Source: Armatimonas rosea (lineage in GTDB: Bacteria; Armatimonadota; Armatimonadia; Armatimonadales; Armatimonadaceae). From it: DNA of 64,000 nucleotides. Position 1 is the stretch's first letter, and each line of letters begins with the position of its first letter. Shown piece by piece: positions 16,767 to 32,597 of this stretch. Both the position numbers and the translations under genes were made by a program. The stretch covers positions 868,001 to 932,000 of the forward strand of contig NZ_JACHGW010000002.1 in the NCBI RefSeq assembly GCF_014202505.1, given 5' to 3'. Under the pieces are notes generated by a model. It did not search any database. It saw only the letters and a program-made list of their open reading frames with translations, and was not told the DNA's origin.

Positions 16767-16770
16767 GTCG

Positions 16771-16850
16771 GCCCCCTAACCCCCGCCCGGCGGGGGGACA
16801 ATAAGGAAAAATCCTCTTATCCCCCCCGCCGGGCGGGGGATGGGGGGTAG
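16771..16850. repeat. Intergenic palindromic repeat, family A copy 1
   Basis: CCCCCTAACCCCCGCC...GGCGGGGG followed by an ACAATAAGGA/TCCTCTTAT centre and the mirror-image G-rich arm. The arms are near-perfect reverse complements. Related copies lie at 19021, 21558, 32590 and 60171. Confidence 0.85.
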
Positions 16851-16860
16851 GAAATAAATC

Positions 16861-19020: not shown

Positions 19021-19110
19021 CCTCACCCCCTAACCCCCGCCCGGCGGGGGGACAATTTGGAAAGAGATTCCTCTTATTCCCCCCGCTGGGCGGGGGCTAG
19101 GGGGGAGGAG
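19021..19110. repeat. Intergenic palindromic repeat, family A copy 2
   Basis: CCCCCTAACCCCCGCCCGGC arm, ACAATTTGGAAAGAGATTCCTCTTATT centre split across positions, then the G-rich arm. The right end (GGGGGGAGGAG, 19100-19110) is the ribosome site of the 19116 gene. Confidence 0.85.
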
Positions 19111-19115
19111 TGATT

Positions 19116-19913: not shown

Positions 19914-19955
19914 CGGGGCACTCCCCCCGCATACCCCACAAGTGGGGCCCCTGCG

Positions 19956-20000
19956 ACCCCCTCTCCCTCTTTTCCTCCTTCGTCGGGAGGAGAGGGGGTG
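19956..20000. repeat. Hairpin CCCCCTCTCC...GGAGAGGGGG upstream of family B copy 1
   Basis: About 45 bases folding into a C-rich/G-rich stem around CTTCGTCG. It makes up the left half of the 205-base gap before sulfatase-like gene 2. Confidence 0.6.
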
Positions 20001-20023
20001 CCGAGGGAGAACCCACCCCCTCT

Positions 20024-20103
20024 AACTCCCCCTCCCTTCGTCCCCGCGAAGCGGGAAACAGAGCGAAGGGAGGGGGCCGGGGGGAGGGATGCTGGGAGGG
20101 ATG
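20024..20103 (+). repeat. Palindromic repeat, family B copy 1 (intergenic)
   Basis: 80 bases, 72 identical to 30947-31026 inside polA. It forms a stem (CTCCCTTCG with CGAAGGGAG) around an inner CCCGC-GAA-GCGGG hairpin, then a G-rich tail with GGGATG repeats. Confidence 0.9.
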
Positions 20104-20118
20104 TCTGGATACAAACTC

Positions 20119-21564
20119 ATGAACATTGTCTTTATCGCACTCGACACTCAGCGCGCCGACCACCTCGGCTGCTACGGCTACGAAAAAAACACATCGCCGA
20201 TTATCGATGCCCTTGCTGCCCAGGGCGTGGTCTTTGAGCGCTGCTACGCGCCCAATATCCCGACCCACCCGTCGTTTACGACCATGCTCACGGGCAAGGA
20301 GGCCATCACCCACAATATTGTCAATATTGGAGGGCGCGTCCCGATTGAGGAAGGCGTGCGCCTCCTGCCCGAGATTCTCAAAGAGCACGGCTGGAACACC
20401 GCAGCGATCGACACGATGGGGCGGCACTTTAATCGCGGCTTCGATACCTACATCTCGCCCCAGTGGGATCGCTCCGACCCGCTCACCCTGCGTCGCGCTG
20501 AGCATATCACCGATGCGGCGCTACCGGTTCTCGCCGAGCTGAAGGCCGATAAAGAGAAGCCCTTCTTTCTCTTTCTGCACTACTGGGACCCGCACACACC
20601 CTATCTTCCACCTGCGGACTTTCGGACGATGTTCTACCCCGAGGGCGCCGATCCGTATGATGTGAACAACCACTCCATGGACAAGGCCTGGAACGACGAG
20701 ATGTTCCAGTGGTACTTCCATGACTGGATGCCGGGGGTCACGGATAGCAGCTATGTCAACGCGCTCTACGATGCGGAGACGGCCTACATGGACTGGCAGC
20801 TACGGCGGCTCTTTGCGGCCATCGAGCCCATCAAGGACGACACCCTGATCGTGATTACCGCCGACCATGGGGAGATTCTCGACGAGCAGCTGGGCTTCTA
20901 CGACCACCACGGGCTCTACGAGGGCAATGTCCATATCCCGCTGATCCTGATCTGGCCCGGCAAGCTCCCTGCCGGCAAGCGTGTCCCGGGCTTTGTGCAG
21001 AACCTGGACTACCTGCCGACCTTCTTCGAGCTGGCTGGAATCCCGGATACCGAGAAGCTCGAAGGCAAGAGCCTGCTGCCCTGCATCTTCGGGGAGCGCG
21101 ACGGCAACTACGACGAGCTATTCCTCTCGGAGGCGACTTGGGAGGTGAAGCGTGCGTACCGCAACAACAAGTGGAAGTTTATCCACTCGTTCGAGCCCGA
21201 CCCGCACGGCCGCCCCCTGCAAGAGCTCTTCGACCTAGAGGCCGACCCCACCGAGCAAGTCAACCTCGCCGAGACGCACCCGGAGATTGTGGCGGAGCTG
21301 AAGGGACGCCTGGATGCCTGGGTCGCCAAGCGCCTTGCGGAGACCGGCCGCACGGAGGACCCCGTTCCGGTGCAAGGGCGCTGTGGGAGCAAGATCGGCA
21401 CCCCCATCGAGGGCGAGACCCCCGGCGCGGGGGCGACACCGCTGCACCTGCGTAAGGCAAAAGAGGCCGCCAATATCCCCAAACCGGAGGAGCTCAACTC
21501 CGCCACCGACCAGAAGTCGGGTAAGCCGCTCCACGGGTATGTGGAGAAGCCCGCTGCCCCCTAA
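20119..21564 (+). CDS. Sulfatase-like hydrolase 2 (Thr nucleophile position)
   Basis: 481 residues from ATG 20119, where the family N-terminus starts (MNIVFIALDTQRADHLGCYG); ATG 20089 and 20101 lie in repeat DNA but cannot be excluded. T49-H-P-S-F replaces C-x-P-S-R before TTMLTG, and the metal site VITADHGEILDEQ is intact. It is closer to sulfatase-like 3 than to 1. No signal peptide. A C-terminal tail of about 50 residues follows the core. The TAA stop (21562-21564) is part of the next palindromic repeat, giving the ending A-A-P. Confidence 0.88.
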   Translation: MNIVFIALDTQRADHLGCYGYEKNTSPIIDALAAQGVVFERCYAPNIPTHPSFTTMLTGKEAITHNIVNIGGRVPIEEGVRLLPEILKEHGWNTAAIDTMGRHFNRGFDTYISPQWDRSDPLTLRRAEHITDAALPVLAELKADKEKPFFLFLHYWDPHTPYLPPADFRTMFYPEGADPYDVNNHSMDKAWNDEMFQWYFHDWMPGVTDSSYVNALYDAETAYMDWQLRRLFAAIEPIKDDTLIVITADHGEILDEQLGFYDHHGLYEGNVHIPLILIWPGKLPAGKRVPGFVQNLDYLPTFFELAGIPDTEKLEGKSLLPCIFGERDGNYDELFLSEATWEVKRAYRNNKWKFIHSFEPDPHGRPLQELFDLEADPTEQVNLAETHPEIVAELKGRLDAWVAKRLAETGRTEDPVPVQGRCGSKIGTPIEGETPGAGATPLHLRKAKEAANIPKPEELNSATDQKSGKPLHGYVEKPAAP

Positions 21565-21636
21565 CCCCCGCAAGCGGGGGGACAATAAGGAAGGAATCCT
21601 CTTATTCCCCCCGCCGGGCGGGGGCTAGGGGGGAAG
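21558..21636. repeat. Intergenic palindromic repeat, family A copy 3
   Basis: CCCCCTAACCCCCGCAAGCG arm, ACAATAAGGAAGGAATCCTC centre and CTAGGGGGGAAGCT right end. It contributes the stop codon of the upstream gene and a GGGGGGAA ribosome site for the downstream gene. Confidence 0.88.
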
Positions 21637-21638
21637 CT

Positions 21639-22991
21639 ATGAACATCGTTCTCTTAGCCATAGACACCCTGCGGCCCGACCACCTCGGGTGCTACGGCTA
21701 TGGTAAAAACACGTCGCCGCAGATCGATGCGCTGGCGGCCGAGTCGGTCGTCTTTGAGCAGGCGATTGCGGCGGGCATCCCGACCATGCCGTCGTTTACC
21801 ACCATGCTCACCGGGCTCCATCCCCTGCGGCACGGGATTGTCGCGCATATCGGGGAGAAGCAGCGGGTGGCGGCACGTGTCCAGACCCTGCCGCAGCTCG
21901 CGCAAAAGGCGGGCTGGACCACTATCGGGATCGACAACTTGGTGATTCAAGGCGGCGGCAAGGGGACGTGGTTCGCGCGGGGCTTTGACCACTACTCCGG
22001 CTTTCTCTACGCCCCCTTCACCAACCAGAGCGAGCAGCTGATCGACCGGGCGATCCAGTTTATTGATGAGCAAGACAAGCAAGTGCCGTTCTTTCTCTAC
22101 TGCCACCTCTGGGACCCACACACGCCCTACGGCCCGCCCGCGCCCTACAACACGATGCACTACACCCCTGGCAGTGCGGAGTACACGATGGACGAGGTCT
22201 ACGCCCACGCGCCGGAGTACTACAAGGCTTTCTTAGGCGAGATGCCCTGCGCGCAACCCGACGACTACGCGGGCTACGTGGCGCTCTACGACGGCGAGAT
22301 CTCCTATGTCGATGTGCAAGTCGGGCGGCTTATCGCGCATCTCAAGAACTCTGGAATCTGGGAAGACACCGTCTTTATCTTCATGAGCGACCATGGCGAG
22401 GCCTTCGGCGAGGGCGAGATTCACTTCGACCACCACGGCCTCTACGATGCCGTCACGCATGTCGCGCTGATGGCCAAGGTTCCCGGCATCGCGCCCGGTC
22501 GCACCGATGCCCTGGTCTCCACCGAGGACATCTTGCCCAGCCTCGCGGCGCTCTGTGGCTGGGAGCTGCCGACGGGCTACGAGCTCACGGGGCAGAGCTT
22601 CGCGCCCACCCTGCGTGGCGAGGAGTTTGCCGGCCGCGAGCGCGTTTTCTGCATAGAGTCGTCGCGGCAGGCTTCGATTGCCATTCGCACGCTCAAGTGG
22701 AAGCTCATCCAGCCGATTGTCGACGACGCGCACGGAAAGCCCCTGCCGCACCTCCACGGCACGCCCCGCGACCCTGCGCCTCTGCTCTTCGACCTGGAGC
22801 ACGACCCCGGCGAGAGACACAATCTCGCCGAGACGCACCCCGAGGTGCGTGAGGCACTTCTCGCAGAGCTGCTGGACTGGCACGCCCAAGAAATCGCCCA
22901 ACGCAACGGGCACGATCCCATCAAGGAGAATGGTCTGAGCTTGAGCTACGAGGTCTTTATGAAGCGATTGCTGGCGAGGCATAAGAAATGA
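21639..22991 (+). CDS. Sulfatase-like hydrolase 3 (Thr nucleophile position)
   Basis: 450 residues: [20 protein letters not shown], then T49-M-P-S-F at the nucleophile motif before TTMLTG, then [20 protein letters not shown] for the second metal site. The three sulfatase-like genes therefore share the loss of the formylglycine Cys/Ser but keep the metal ligands, which suggests working Thr-type enzymes and not dead copies. Cytoplasmic. The stop overlaps the ATG annotated for cysC (ATGA at 22988-22991). Confidence 0.88.
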
Positions 22992-27047: not shown

Positions 27048-27048
27048 C

Positions 27049-27177
27049 CGCCCCGGTTGGAGCGGGGCGTCAACGAGCGTCGCAGACTCCGCTGGGAAGG
27101 CCTTCGGCCATAAAATGGCCCATGGGCGAAGCCCTTTCCAGCCGAAGGCTCGTTGACGCCTCGCTCCAACCGAGGCG
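27049..27177. repeat. Long intergenic palindrome between convergent genes (family E)
   Basis: 129 bases. The outer arms (27049-27078 and 27148-27177) pair almost perfectly, including CGTCAACGAGC with GCTCGTTGACG. The centre holds GGCC-TTC-GGCC and GGGCGAAGCCC. It likely serves as a two-way terminator or is a REP-like element. Confidence 0.85.
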
Positions 27178-27179
27178 AT

Positions 27180-28016
27180 CTAAACCGTCGTGAGGTAGTC
27201 CCGGCCGTAGGGGCCGTTCTCCAGCCCTTGAATCAGAACACGCGGCAGGTCTTGCTTGTACTCGGGGAAGCACGCGGAGCAGCCCAGGGCAATCGCGGCG
27301 ACGGAGTCCGTATCGCCGGTGAAGGCGACCGCGGTGCGGAGCAGCTCGGACTGGGTGCGGCAGGCGAGGAGCGCGGTGAGTGCCGCGCGGGCGGTGGAGA
27401 GGCCATGGAGGGGAACCTCGCCGTGCCAGGGCTCTGACCAGGGGGTGCCGGGGACGTGTTTTTCGAGGAACGCCGCAAGCTCGCTGAGCTTGCCGAGTCG
27501 CTTGAGCCCAAAGTGCGCCATGAGCCCAACAGCCTGCGACGAGGCAATTCCCCCTGGCGTGTTGTGGGTGATCGCCGCCTGAGTCTTGGCGTAGGCCTTC
27601 ACCTTGGTGATGCTTGGCAAGAGCCCCAGCGGCACCGAGCGCATCGCCGCCCCATTGCGGTCGCTGGTGGGGTTGAGCTTCTCCAGCAGCTCACTGCCGT
27701 TCTTGCAGGACTTCAAGATGCCTTCAAAGCCACGCGCATAGCCGGGGCGTGGGTCGCGGTGGTAGACAAAAACAAACCGGTCAGCGAGGTAGCGCGGCGT
27801 GAACGGCTCCCCTAGCCGCACCGCCTCCCAGATCGCCAGCGTCATCTGGGTATCGTCGGTGTAGTGCCCCGGCGTGAACCCGGCCCGCTTGCGGTAGTGC
27901 CTGCCATCGTTCTCGCGCGCCACGACCTCGGGGGACTCAAACTCAAAGCCCGCACCGTAGGCATCTCCGACAGCAATCGAGAGAAGGAGGCGCGGGCTGG
28001 TCTTGGTAGTGCTCAT
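27180..28016 (-). CDS. ADP-ribosylglycohydrolase family protein
   Basis: 278 residues. Removes ADP-ribose from proteins or small molecules. The metal-binding motifs are SIAVGDAYGAGFEFE at the start, GHYTDDTQMTLAIWEAV near residue 50 and AFTGDTDSVAAIALGCS near residue 235. It lacks a signal peptide. Substrate unknown (dinitrogenase reductase, ADP-ribosyl-Arg or other). ATG 28016 lies 9 bases after CATAAT. It is convergent with larA and close to the divergent side of the aldo/keto reductase gene, both on the minus strand. Confidence 0.9.
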   Translation of the reverse strand: MSTTKTSPRLLLSIAVGDAYGAGFEFESPEVVARENDGRHYRKRAGFTPGHYTDDTQMTLAIWEAVRLGEPFTPRYLADRFVFVYHRDPRPGYARGFEGILKSCKNGSELLEKLNPTSDRNGAAMRSVPLGLLPSITKVKAYAKTQAAITHNTPGGIASSQAVGLMAHFGLKRLGKLSELAAFLEKHVPGTPWSEPWHGEVPLHGLSTARAALTALLACRTQSELLRTAVAFTGDTDSVAAIALGCSACFPEYKQDLPRVLIQGLENGPYGRDYLTTV

Positions 28017-29726: not shown

Positions 29727-32597
29727 ATGGCTAAAACACTCGTTCTCCTCGACGGTAACTCGCTGCTCTTTCGGGGCTTTTTTGCGGTGCGCTCCCTGAC
29801 CAACTCCAAGGGCCTGCCCACCAACGCGCTCTTTGGCTTCACGCAGATGCTCCTCGGGGTTGTGGAGAAGCACCACCCGGACCTGATGTTCTGCGCCTGG
29901 GACACGCACGATCCCACGTTTCGCCATGAGCTGTTCACGGAGTACAAGGGGACGCGCCAAGACACACCGGATGATCTGATCCAGCAAGGCCCGTATGCAC
30001 GCCGCCTCGCTGATGTCTTCCGGGCGATCTCGCTGGAGGCACCGGGCTACGAGGCCGACGATATCATCGGAACGCTGACCATCCAAGGCGTGGCGGCAGG
30101 CTATGAGGTGCTGATTGTCACCGGAGACTCGGACATGCTGCAGCTGGTGCAGCCGGGCGTCACGGTGCTGACCATGATCAAGGGCATCACGGACACGGTG
30201 ATCTACGACGAGGCCGCGGTGGAGGCGCGCTACGGGCTCAAGCCGGTCCAGCTCACCGACTACCGCGCGCTGAAGGGCGACTCCAGCGACAACATCCCCG
30301 GCGTCCCCGGTATCGGTGAGAAAACGGCCACGACGCTGCTGCAAGCGTTCCCGACCGTGGAGGAGCTGGAGGCACGCCTGAGTGAGGTGACTCCGGTGCG
30401 CATCCAGGAGAAGATTCGCGAGAACTTAGAGAAGATGCGCCTCTCCAAAGACCTCGCGGTGATCCGCAAGGACATCCCGCTGCCGGAAGCCGCCGCACTG
30501 CCTAGCCCCACCGAGTGCCCGGACTACTCCCCAGACTACGCCGCCATAAAACTCTTCTTCGATGAGCTGGAGTTCCGCACCCTCGCGCGCCGGGTGGAGG
30601 CGATGAGTGCAGGTTCCCCGACCAGCCCCCCCCGCCCCCACCCAGCGGGGGAGCCTGAAGTGGAGGTTGTGGCGGAGGCGAAGGCGGTCTTGCTGACCAT
30701 CACCGAGGTCGAGACAGCTACCGATGTGGCCGAGCTTCTTGCCGCCGCAAAGGCGGCCGGCAGAGTCGCGCTTCGCCTCCACACCGATGAAGCCTCCGCG
30801 CTGGATGCACGGCTCTATGGGGTCGCCATCGCTACCGGAGCCGGGCGCGTTTTCTACTGCCCCCTTGCCCCCCCCCCCCTCGCCCCCCCCGTCCCCGCAA
30901 GCGGCGGAGCCGAGCTAGGCGGCCTCTTCGACACCCCCCCAGCCCCAACTCCCCCTTCCTTCGTCCCGACGAAGTCGGAAACAGAGCGAAGGAAGGGGGC
31001 CGGGGGGATGGATGCTGGGATGGATGCCCTCCTCACCGACCCCACGATTGGCAAGCTCACCTACGACGGCCGCACCGATATCACGATCTTGCAGCGGCAT
31101 GGCTTCACGCTAAGTGCCCTTGCCTTTGATGCAGAGCTCGCGGCGTATCTGCTCTTTGCTGGTCAGCGGGCGACCTACCCGCTGCGGGACATCGCGCAGA
31201 ACCTTGCAGGGCGTGAGCTGCCGCCTGCGCTGGAGAAAAAAGAGCGTGCGACCCTCGACGCAGCGACGGTGTTTGAGCGCGATAAGCAACTGGCGATTGC
31301 CGCGGCGGAGACGATCTTCGCTTTGCACGAGACGCTGGAGCCGCGCCTGGAAAAGGATAAGCTCGACGGCCTCTTGCGAGAGCTGGAGCTGCCCTTGGTG
31401 CCGATTTTGGCGGAGATCGAGCGCACGGGGCTGCTCTTGGACAAGTCACTCTTAGAGAAGATCGCGGCAGGGATGGGCGAGCAGATCACGGCGCTGGAGA
31501 AGTCAATCCACGCGCTGGCGGGGGAGCCGTTCACGGTGAACTCACCCAAGCAGCTGGCCGAGGTGCTCTTTGAGAAGCTGAAGCTGCCGTCGGGGAAGAA
31601 GACCAAGACGGGCTACTCGACCGATGCGGATGTCCTGGAGCCCCTTGCGCTGGAGCACGAGATTGTCGCGCAGGTGCTGCAGTACCGGGAGCTGGCGAAG
31701 CTCAAGAGCACCTACGCCGACGCGCTCCCGGCGCTGGTGCGAAGCGATGGGCGGGTGCACACGTCGCTGAATCAGACGGTGGCGGCGACTGGTAGGCTTT
31801 CGTCGTCGAACCCAAACCTCCAGAACATTCCCATCCGAACCCCCGTGGGACGGGAGATTCGTAAGGCGTTTGTGGCGCCGCCGGGGCGGATTCTGCTCTC
31901 GGCGGACTACTCGCAGATCGAGCTGCGGATCTTTGCCCACGTGGCGGAGGACAAAGATTTAAGAGACGCGTTCTCGTCGGGCGAGGACATCCACAAGTAC
32001 ACGGCGGGGAAGGTGTATGGGATCGAGCCGAGCGCGGTGACGGGTGATATGCGGCGCGCGGCTAAGACGGTGAACTACGCGGTGCTCTATGGCATCTCGG
32101 ACTTTGCGCTGGCGCGGCAATTGAAGATTCCGCAGAGCGAGGCGAAGGCACTGAAAGAGTCCTACTTTGCACGCTTCCCCGGCGTGAAGGCCTATCTCGA
32201 TGGCACGATTGAGTTTGCCCAGAAGAACGGCTATGTCCAGACCCTGATCGGCCGTCGGCGCTGGATTCCCGATATCAACAACCGGGTCTTTAACTTCCGC
32301 CAGGCAGCGGAGCGTGCGGCGGCGAACATGCCGATCCAAGGGACGAGCGCGGACATCATGAAGCAGGCGATGCTCTCGGTCTGGGCGATGCTCCACGAGA
32401 CGCAGCTCCCCGCACTCCTGCTCTTGCAGGTGCACGATGAGCTTCTGTTTGAGGTAGACCAGGACGCGGCAGGGGAGCTGGGAGCGAAGGTCAAGGCCTG
32501 TATGGAGAGTGCCTACCCGCTGACGGTCAGCCTGGATGTGGATGTGAAAACGGGACCGTCGTGGGGGGACACGACCGTGGTGGAGCTGGCCCCCTGA
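29727..32597 (+). CDS. polA: DNA polymerase I with repeat-encoded insertion
   Basis: 956 residues. The 5'-nuclease domain (1-290) has LLDGNSLLFRGFFA and GDSDMLQL. The middle 3'-5' exonuclease-like domain lacks the D-x-E motif (VALRLHTDEASALDARLYGV), so proofreading is probably absent. The polymerase domain (from about 560) has DYSQIELRIFAHVAEDKDL, RRAAKTVNYAVLYGIS and LLLQVHDELLFEV intact. Residues about 378-434 are a proline-rich, low-complexity insertion encoded by palindromic repeat DNA (family B copy 2). The stop codon lies in a short family A repeat. It acts in repair and Okazaki fragment processing. Confidence 0.96.
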   Translation: MAKTLVLLDGNSLLFRGFFAVRSLTNSKGLPTNALFGFTQMLLGVVEKHHPDLMFCAWDTHDPTFRHELFTEYKGTRQDTPDDLIQQGPYARRLADVFRAISLEAPGYEADDIIGTLTIQGVAAGYEVLIVTGDSDMLQLVQPGVTVLTMIKGITDTVIYDEAAVEARYGLKPVQLTDYRALKGDSSDNIPGVPGIGEKTATTLLQAFPTVEELEARLSEVTPVRIQEKIRENLEKMRLSKDLAVIRKDIPLPEAAALPSPTECPDYSPDYAAIKLFFDELEFRTLARRVEAMSAGSPTSPPRPHPAGEPEVEVVAEAKAVLLTITEVETATDVAELLAAAKAAGRVALRLHTDEASALDARLYGVAIATGAGRVFYCPLAPPPLAPPVPASGGAELGGLFDTPPAPTPPSFVPTKSETERRKGAGGMDAGMDALLTDPTIGKLTYDGRTDITILQRHGFTLSALAFDAELAAYLLFAGQRATYPLRDIAQNLAGRELPPALEKKERATLDAATVFERDKQLAIAAAETIFALHETLEPRLEKDKLDGLLRELELPLVPILAEIERTGLLLDKSLLEKIAAGMGEQITALEKSIHALAGEPFTVNSPKQLAEVLFEKLKLPSGKKTKTGYSTDADVLEPLALEHEIVAQVLQYRELAKLKSTYADALPALVRSDGRVHTSLNQTVAATGRLSSSNPNLQNIPIRTPVGREIRKAFVAPPGRILLSADYSQIELRIFAHVAEDKDLRDAFSSGEDIHKYTAGKVYGIEPSAVTGDMRRAAKTVNYAVLYGISDFALARQLKIPQSEAKALKESYFARFPGVKAYLDGTIEFAQKNGYVQTLIGRRRWIPDINNRVFNFRQAAERAAANMPIQGTSADIMKQAMLSVWAMLHETQLPALLLLQVHDELLFEVDQDAAGELGAKVKACMESAYPLTVSLDVDVKTGPSWGDTTVVELAP
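30947..31026 (+). repeat. Palindromic repeat, family B copy 2, in frame within polA
   Basis: 72 of 80 bases match 20024-20103. Stem changes are compensated on both sides (C to T with G to A in the outer stem; CCCGC/GCGGG to CCGA/TCGG in the inner stem). It encodes roughly residues 407-434 of PolA. Confidence 0.92.

Follow-up and report, generated by a model that had tools for sequence, protein, structure and literature searches.

How did a sequence that folds as a hairpin, and that recurs between genes, come to encode part of DNA polymerase I in Armatimonas rosea? In the window, by which we mean the whole 64,000-nucleotide stretch of DNA that was analysed, polA (29727..32597, + strand) encodes a 956 aa protein with a 5'-3' exonuclease, a vestigial 3'-5' exonuclease-like domain and a polymerase domain; the gene is intact and is the sole PolA found in the genome. 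When aligned within the window, bases 30947-31026 in polA are identical to the intergenic bases 20024-20103 at 72 of 80 positions, exactly the positions and count given in a preliminary description of this DNA. That description was also right that the frame remains open across the element, which corresponds to PolA residues 408-434 and encodes TPPSFVPTKSETERRKGAGGMDA. The polA copy of the element (family A; 30945..31029, + strand; covariance model 87.9 bits, E 2.3e-13) consists of an outer stem (30951-30964 paired with 30986-30999), an inner stem with a GAA triloop (~30966-30979), and a G-rich tail with iterated GGATGGATG. The intergenic copy (20007..20104, + strand; 92.6 bits, E 2.9e-14) has an iterated tail of its own, GGGAGGGATGCTGGGAGGGATG. 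The DNA fold z-score of the element is -3.8.

The preliminary description held that the changes in both stems are paired, so that the sequence drifts while the fold is kept. Pairing accounts for six of the eight differences between the two copies, which form three compensatory pairs: a C-G to T-A change in the outer stem (30957/30993) and two in the inner stem (30968/30976 and 30969/30975). The remaining two differences (31009 and 31021) fall in the unpaired tail. The proposed drift did not hold up. The polA core (30949-31014, 66 nt) is identical to the copies at C3:422244 and C2:260059, which indicates that the polA copy is recent, given that polA as a whole is about 15% diverged from that of the congener. 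The core belongs to a subfamily in which three loci (L009, L011 and L023) are identical over 66 nt and a fourth (L027) differs by one change. Because the paired changes are common to this subfamily, they arose before the polA insertion and not through drift inside polA; they would be subfamily marks that the insertion brought with it. At C2:260059 the copy is in frame directly after a signal-peptide-like N-terminus, where it gives an unrelated protein the same peptide, PPSFVPTKSETERRKGAGGMDA.

AlphaFold2 gave PolA a mean pLDDT of 86, with values below 50 in only two segments, 296-317 and 389-425, both of which bear palindromes. The insert is predicted to form a disordered loop of the exonuclease-like domain, which is probably inactive since, in a by-eye alignment, the positions that we take to correspond to the E. 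coli carboxylates D355 and E357 appear to hold other residues. The wider low-complexity segment 378-434, pointed out in the preliminary description, is composite: only ~30945-31029 is newly inserted, and bases 30859..30911 (+ strand) are an older C-rich palindrome remnant that resembles another palindrome family and is common to the congener (CCCCCTCGCCCCCGCAAGCGGGGGAGCCGAGC there). At this site the element is absent from the PolA of the congener, which is about 82-85% identical. In the second low-confidence loop (residues ~299-310) lies another C-rich palindrome remnant (30622..30655, + strand); in this disordered loop the congener carries a palindrome of family P whose ends are tandemly iterated (AATCCCTCCTCCGTG; L039, G001:C95:34136-34211). 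In G007, a member of the family, the matched frame of polA (L138 2001-4799, G007:C34) runs through a single internal TGA, which could be due to a sequencing error, a frameshift or a pseudogene.

Dozens of further copies emerged when the genome (6.3 Mb, 19 contigs) was searched and a catalogue was built from covariance-model and BLAST searches. BLAST with the element returned 56 matches at E<=1e-3, far beyond chance. A covariance model built from 38 copies found 108 matches at E<0.01; distinct hairpins numbered 66 at E<1e-5, and 55 hairpins passed E<1e-8. A wider set comprises 78 hairpins, grouped into 58 clusters. Fourteen base pairs form the outer stem of the hairpin and 5-6 the inner stem, whose closing GAA triloop is invariant in the 38 copies. 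Covariation (0.262 vs 0.098 when shuffled, 0/500) was well above that of shuffles, six pairs were changed on both sides, and the signal was absent in slid controls. GCGAAGC, the motif of the loop, is known to form a DNA mini-hairpin of unusual stability, and such a loop would suit folding as single-stranded DNA. A 27-nt stretch from the element's 3' half had no exact copy in viral contigs.

Covariation and fold conservation would also be seen if the hairpins were kept in genes for a function in RNA, such as pausing, attenuation or mRNA stability, with the fold selected in place. We consider this improbable: the paired changes are subfamily-wide and so reflect mobile master copies, the hairpins lie in unrelated genes in both orientations, and an Rfam search with them gave only sub-threshold chance matches, none above the gathering score.

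We called a copy in-gene when it had a continuous coding frame and coding flanks on both sides, judged by codon-usage scores trained on long ORFs. Fifteen of the 58 clusters fit this definition, 13 of them convincingly, so that at least 13 genes including polA carry the element, mostly between domains; the genes are unrelated, both orientations occur, and the copies are read in more than one frame. Two flagged ORFs (C4:424150 and C1:1236131) were dropped from the in-gene count for poor frame or ortholog support. With genes named from Pfam, or read from sequence for C4:678041, C3:596920 and the permease part, the carriers include recQ, where the element separates the Zn-binding from the HRDC domain; a gene for an AlkZ-like DNA glycosylase; four genes with PSCyt-type N-termini, of which three are backed by ortholog alignments and C3:596920 by similarity alone; a PSCyt-like/WD40 protein; GH106, GH2 and GT2 genes; a fusion of an ABC permease with M1; and a protein resembling tryptophan halogenases. 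Each of the 56 strong cores has at least five of its six frames open, whereas random 66-mers have a mean of 4.0. Insertions of suitable length would survive because the sequence, being T-poor and G/C-rich, keeps 5-6 of 6 frames open. Together with the covariation, in-frame copies in many genes fit the earlier suggestion of a mobile or selected structure that tolerates translation. Neither of the two outcomes that the preliminary description named as refuting it was seen: further copies number in the dozens, and the congener's PolA has no such element at the insertion site.

The element family is restricted to one lineage among the genomes searched. In a comparison by covariance model, 91 matches were found in its own genome and six in the congener G001, one of them above 46 bits; another genus of the same family (G004) gave 49 weak matches and the remaining genomes 0-4. 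Orthologs of 11 of the 13 genes could be compared with the congener at the DNA level, in windows placed by eye, and the main element was present at none of the 11 sites. Eight of these sites nevertheless hold a palindrome, with an arm matched or exceeded by <=6.3% of same-gene control windows. The GH106 site is cleanly empty, and two sites with short hairpins only (C1:281754 and C4:678041) were left out of the occupied count. At five of the eight occupied sites, BLAST identified the occupant as a different dispersed family: D3 at the polA (a half copy), WD40 and ABC permease sites (C95:33843, C54:6412 and C135:28534), and Q at the GT2 and halogenase sites (C47:160 and C146:11457). A palindrome of unproven family membership is present at the recQ, AlkZ and C4:468590 sites.

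Similar occupancy was seen in reverse. For four in-gene copies of P or Q in G001, the corresponding A. rosea sites were compared, and 3-4 of the four hold a palindrome; a queG-like gene has a full D3 copy at the site of the congener's in-gene copy. Matches to family P number 60 in G001 and one in A. rosea; for D3 the figures are 56 in the congener and 64 in A. rosea. The same linker of PolA is occupied in a different genus (G006), by a palindrome that has 55 matches across its own genome. No hairpin of the gene is stronger than this linker palindrome in G006, and likewise in G008; across most of the phylum the PolA linker is short and has no palindrome. Because orthologous congener sites often hold palindromes of other families, we infer that the permissive sites are old and that their occupants are swapped as new families expand. 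Given the small sample, the by-eye windows and the single congener compared, the same-site pattern is a strong lead and not a law.

It is tempting to speculate that genes of the Armatimonadaceae carry inherited palindrome slots, in which the resident is overwritten by the lineage's active family through palindrome-targeted insertion or gene conversion. This is a tentative reading, to which we lean less than even. If it is true, the linkers of proteins change along with the turnover of mobile elements, and PolA is one slot in at least three genomes and two genera, each with its own family. Shared sites could instead reflect independent insertion, with palindromes landing anywhere, only those in surface linkers surviving, and few positions in a gene being tolerant. 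The sites are indeed interdomain linkers or disordered loops, the GH106 site is the one of 11 that is cleanly empty in the congener, and the PolA linker is empty across most of the phylum. Chance reuse of tolerant linkers is nevertheless somewhat doubtful, given that 8/11 congener sites and 3-4/4 reverse sites are occupied though each gene has many loops, and that the occupied position is usually among the gene's strongest palindromes.

The sites might also be shared by descent, with an ancestral superfamily element at each site, A, P and Q as its descendants homogenised per genome, and little new transposition into genes. Families A and P have terminal motifs (ATCCCTCC...CCCGGCCCC) and iterated ends in common, and the older polA remnant at 30859-30911 is present in both species. 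We regard such vertical inheritance as unlikely: D3, the occupant of the congener polA, WD40 and ABC-permease sites, has no evident similarity to A, and the identity of the polA copy to two other genomic copies needs recent movement or conversion.

What kind of mobile element would this be? Twenty clusters are head-to-head inverted doublets, 141-182 nt long and bounded by CATCCC...GGGATG; their terminal motifs are often iterated, and some are chimeric with a second hairpin family, B. The ends are flanked by CC/TC. We think the element is probably REPIN-like: a mobile palindrome, non-autonomous and belonging to a single Armatimonadota lineage, whose full-length unit would be the inverted doublet of two hairpins; single hairpins, that of polA included, would be partial or decayed units. 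Movement may occur as single-stranded DNA copied in trans by a Y1/HUH (RAYT-type) transposase, as suggested by the doublets, the mostly absent target duplication, the lineage-specific families and a REPtron-like locus. Disruptive insertions would be purged, which would leave survivors in frame and in Pro/Gly/Ser-rich loops.

Several observations count against this REPIN-like reading. The unpaired GTAG-type and CGTC tags of the two REP super-families are both absent from the element ends, and the stems are longer than in published REPs. Matching flanks of 4-5 nt occur in 3/20 doublets (shuffle P 0.027 over all), which leaves some room for a transposase that duplicates its target. None of the seven Y1_Tnp genes in the genome is flanked by the main element. 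A miniature inverted-repeat transposon (MITE) moved by a conventional DDE-type IS transposase would likewise be non-autonomous, with terminal inverted repeats such as CATCCC...GGGATG and a length such as 141-182 nt. We give this alternative little weight: 15/20 doublets lack an adjacent matching flank and a constant target duplication was not seen among the 20, the unit is two self-standing hairpins and not simple terminal repeats, singlets are common, and no element with these ends plus a transposase was found.

RAYT-like genes are present in the genome. That at C1:1548188 (locus L031, G000:C1:1546688-1550029) has inverted copies of another palindrome on both sides, with 48 matches genome-wide and none in the congener, and CCGGGGGGAGGG lies directly after its stop. 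Within 418 kb, CCGGGGGGAGGG otherwise occurs only in element copies, a link too weak to name this locus as the mobiliser. The pair C3:20159/20832 was considered as a transposase carrier and set aside, as the enclosed gene reads as ordinary by eye. Several Y1 transposase genes (L031-L037) are preceded by short stretches that resemble one another (TTTTGTCAGATTTGG...CACCCGTTATAGGGG) and may be a conserved left end or leader.

The element was also compared with known systems. The element resembles REPIN/RAYT systems (PMC3116915) in being a high-copy dispersed palindrome (78 hairpins in 58 clusters, 20 doublets) with inverted doublets and decayed singlets, in a genome with RAYT-like genes, one of which has its own flanking family; it differs in that its arms are two-stem hairpins of 65-85 nt and not a short REP core. 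The preliminary description had likened it to the Rickettsia palindromic elements (RPE; summary in PMC10969869), which are also ~150 bp, dispersed, palindromic and in frame in many unrelated genes with translation tolerated. In-frame insertion (13 genes with both flanks coding and orthologs without the element) and tolerance of translation support that likeness, for which no relation in sequence is expected. The phylum differs, however, about one quarter of clusters here are in genes, and more than one element frame is used; the architecture is closer to REP/REPIN, given the inverted doublets, the mostly absent target duplication and the REPtron-type transposase genes. MITEs and intragenic enterobacterial RU/ERIC (PMC2759123, PMC10969869) are similarly non-autonomous, with terminal inverted repeats, and can fuse to ORFs, but the element here mostly lacks target duplication and has internal double hairpins.

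The nearest precedent is intragenic REPs. In the work of Di Nocera et al. 2013 (PMC3733652), REPs were found within ORFs, many of these belonging to replication and repair genes, including that for DNA polymerase I; two Xanthomonas species carried different REPs at roughly one and the same position of recB. Like the element here, those REPs (GTAG and CGTC super-families) are short inverted-pair palindromes that are lineage-specific, lie partly in ORFs and encode 20-30 residues. Our element lacks their tags, has a longer hairpin (20 pairs, two stems) and an Armatimonadota host, and the same-site, different-family pattern involves many genes here and one gene there. Because intragenic REPs, including one in polA, are published, the kind is already known. 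A literature search on palindromic elements in Armatimonas found nothing relevant, and the family, phylum and scale appear new; what is added to the known is the family and the phylum in which it occurs, along with the finding that different families repeatedly use the same sites. In a little-studied phylum, palindromes encode protein on a scale that recalls Rickettsia, and do so in core repair genes such as polA, recQ and that for the AlkZ-like glycosylase. Should the same-site, different-family pattern be borne out in further species, it would offer a direct route to asking whether mobile palindromes target existing palindromes, and how they supply new linker peptides.

Other palindromes lie nearby in the window. 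Family B (CCCCCTCTCC...GGAGAGGGGG, CGAAGG-type loop), recognised from sequence, has a copy at 19955..19999 (+ strand) and adjoins the main element at many loci (L002, L003, L005, L010, L019 and L024). D3, the family of the congener's polA-site half copy, has three palindromes (GCCCCCTAACCCCCGC...) on the + strand at 16768..16858, 19022..19112 and 21555..21643, which lie between or near tandem sulfatase-like paralogs. A hairpin-forming stretch of ~130 nt at 27048-27178, beside an ORF on the minus strand (27180-28016), scored below the Rfam threshold on both strands and is probably another palindromic repeat.
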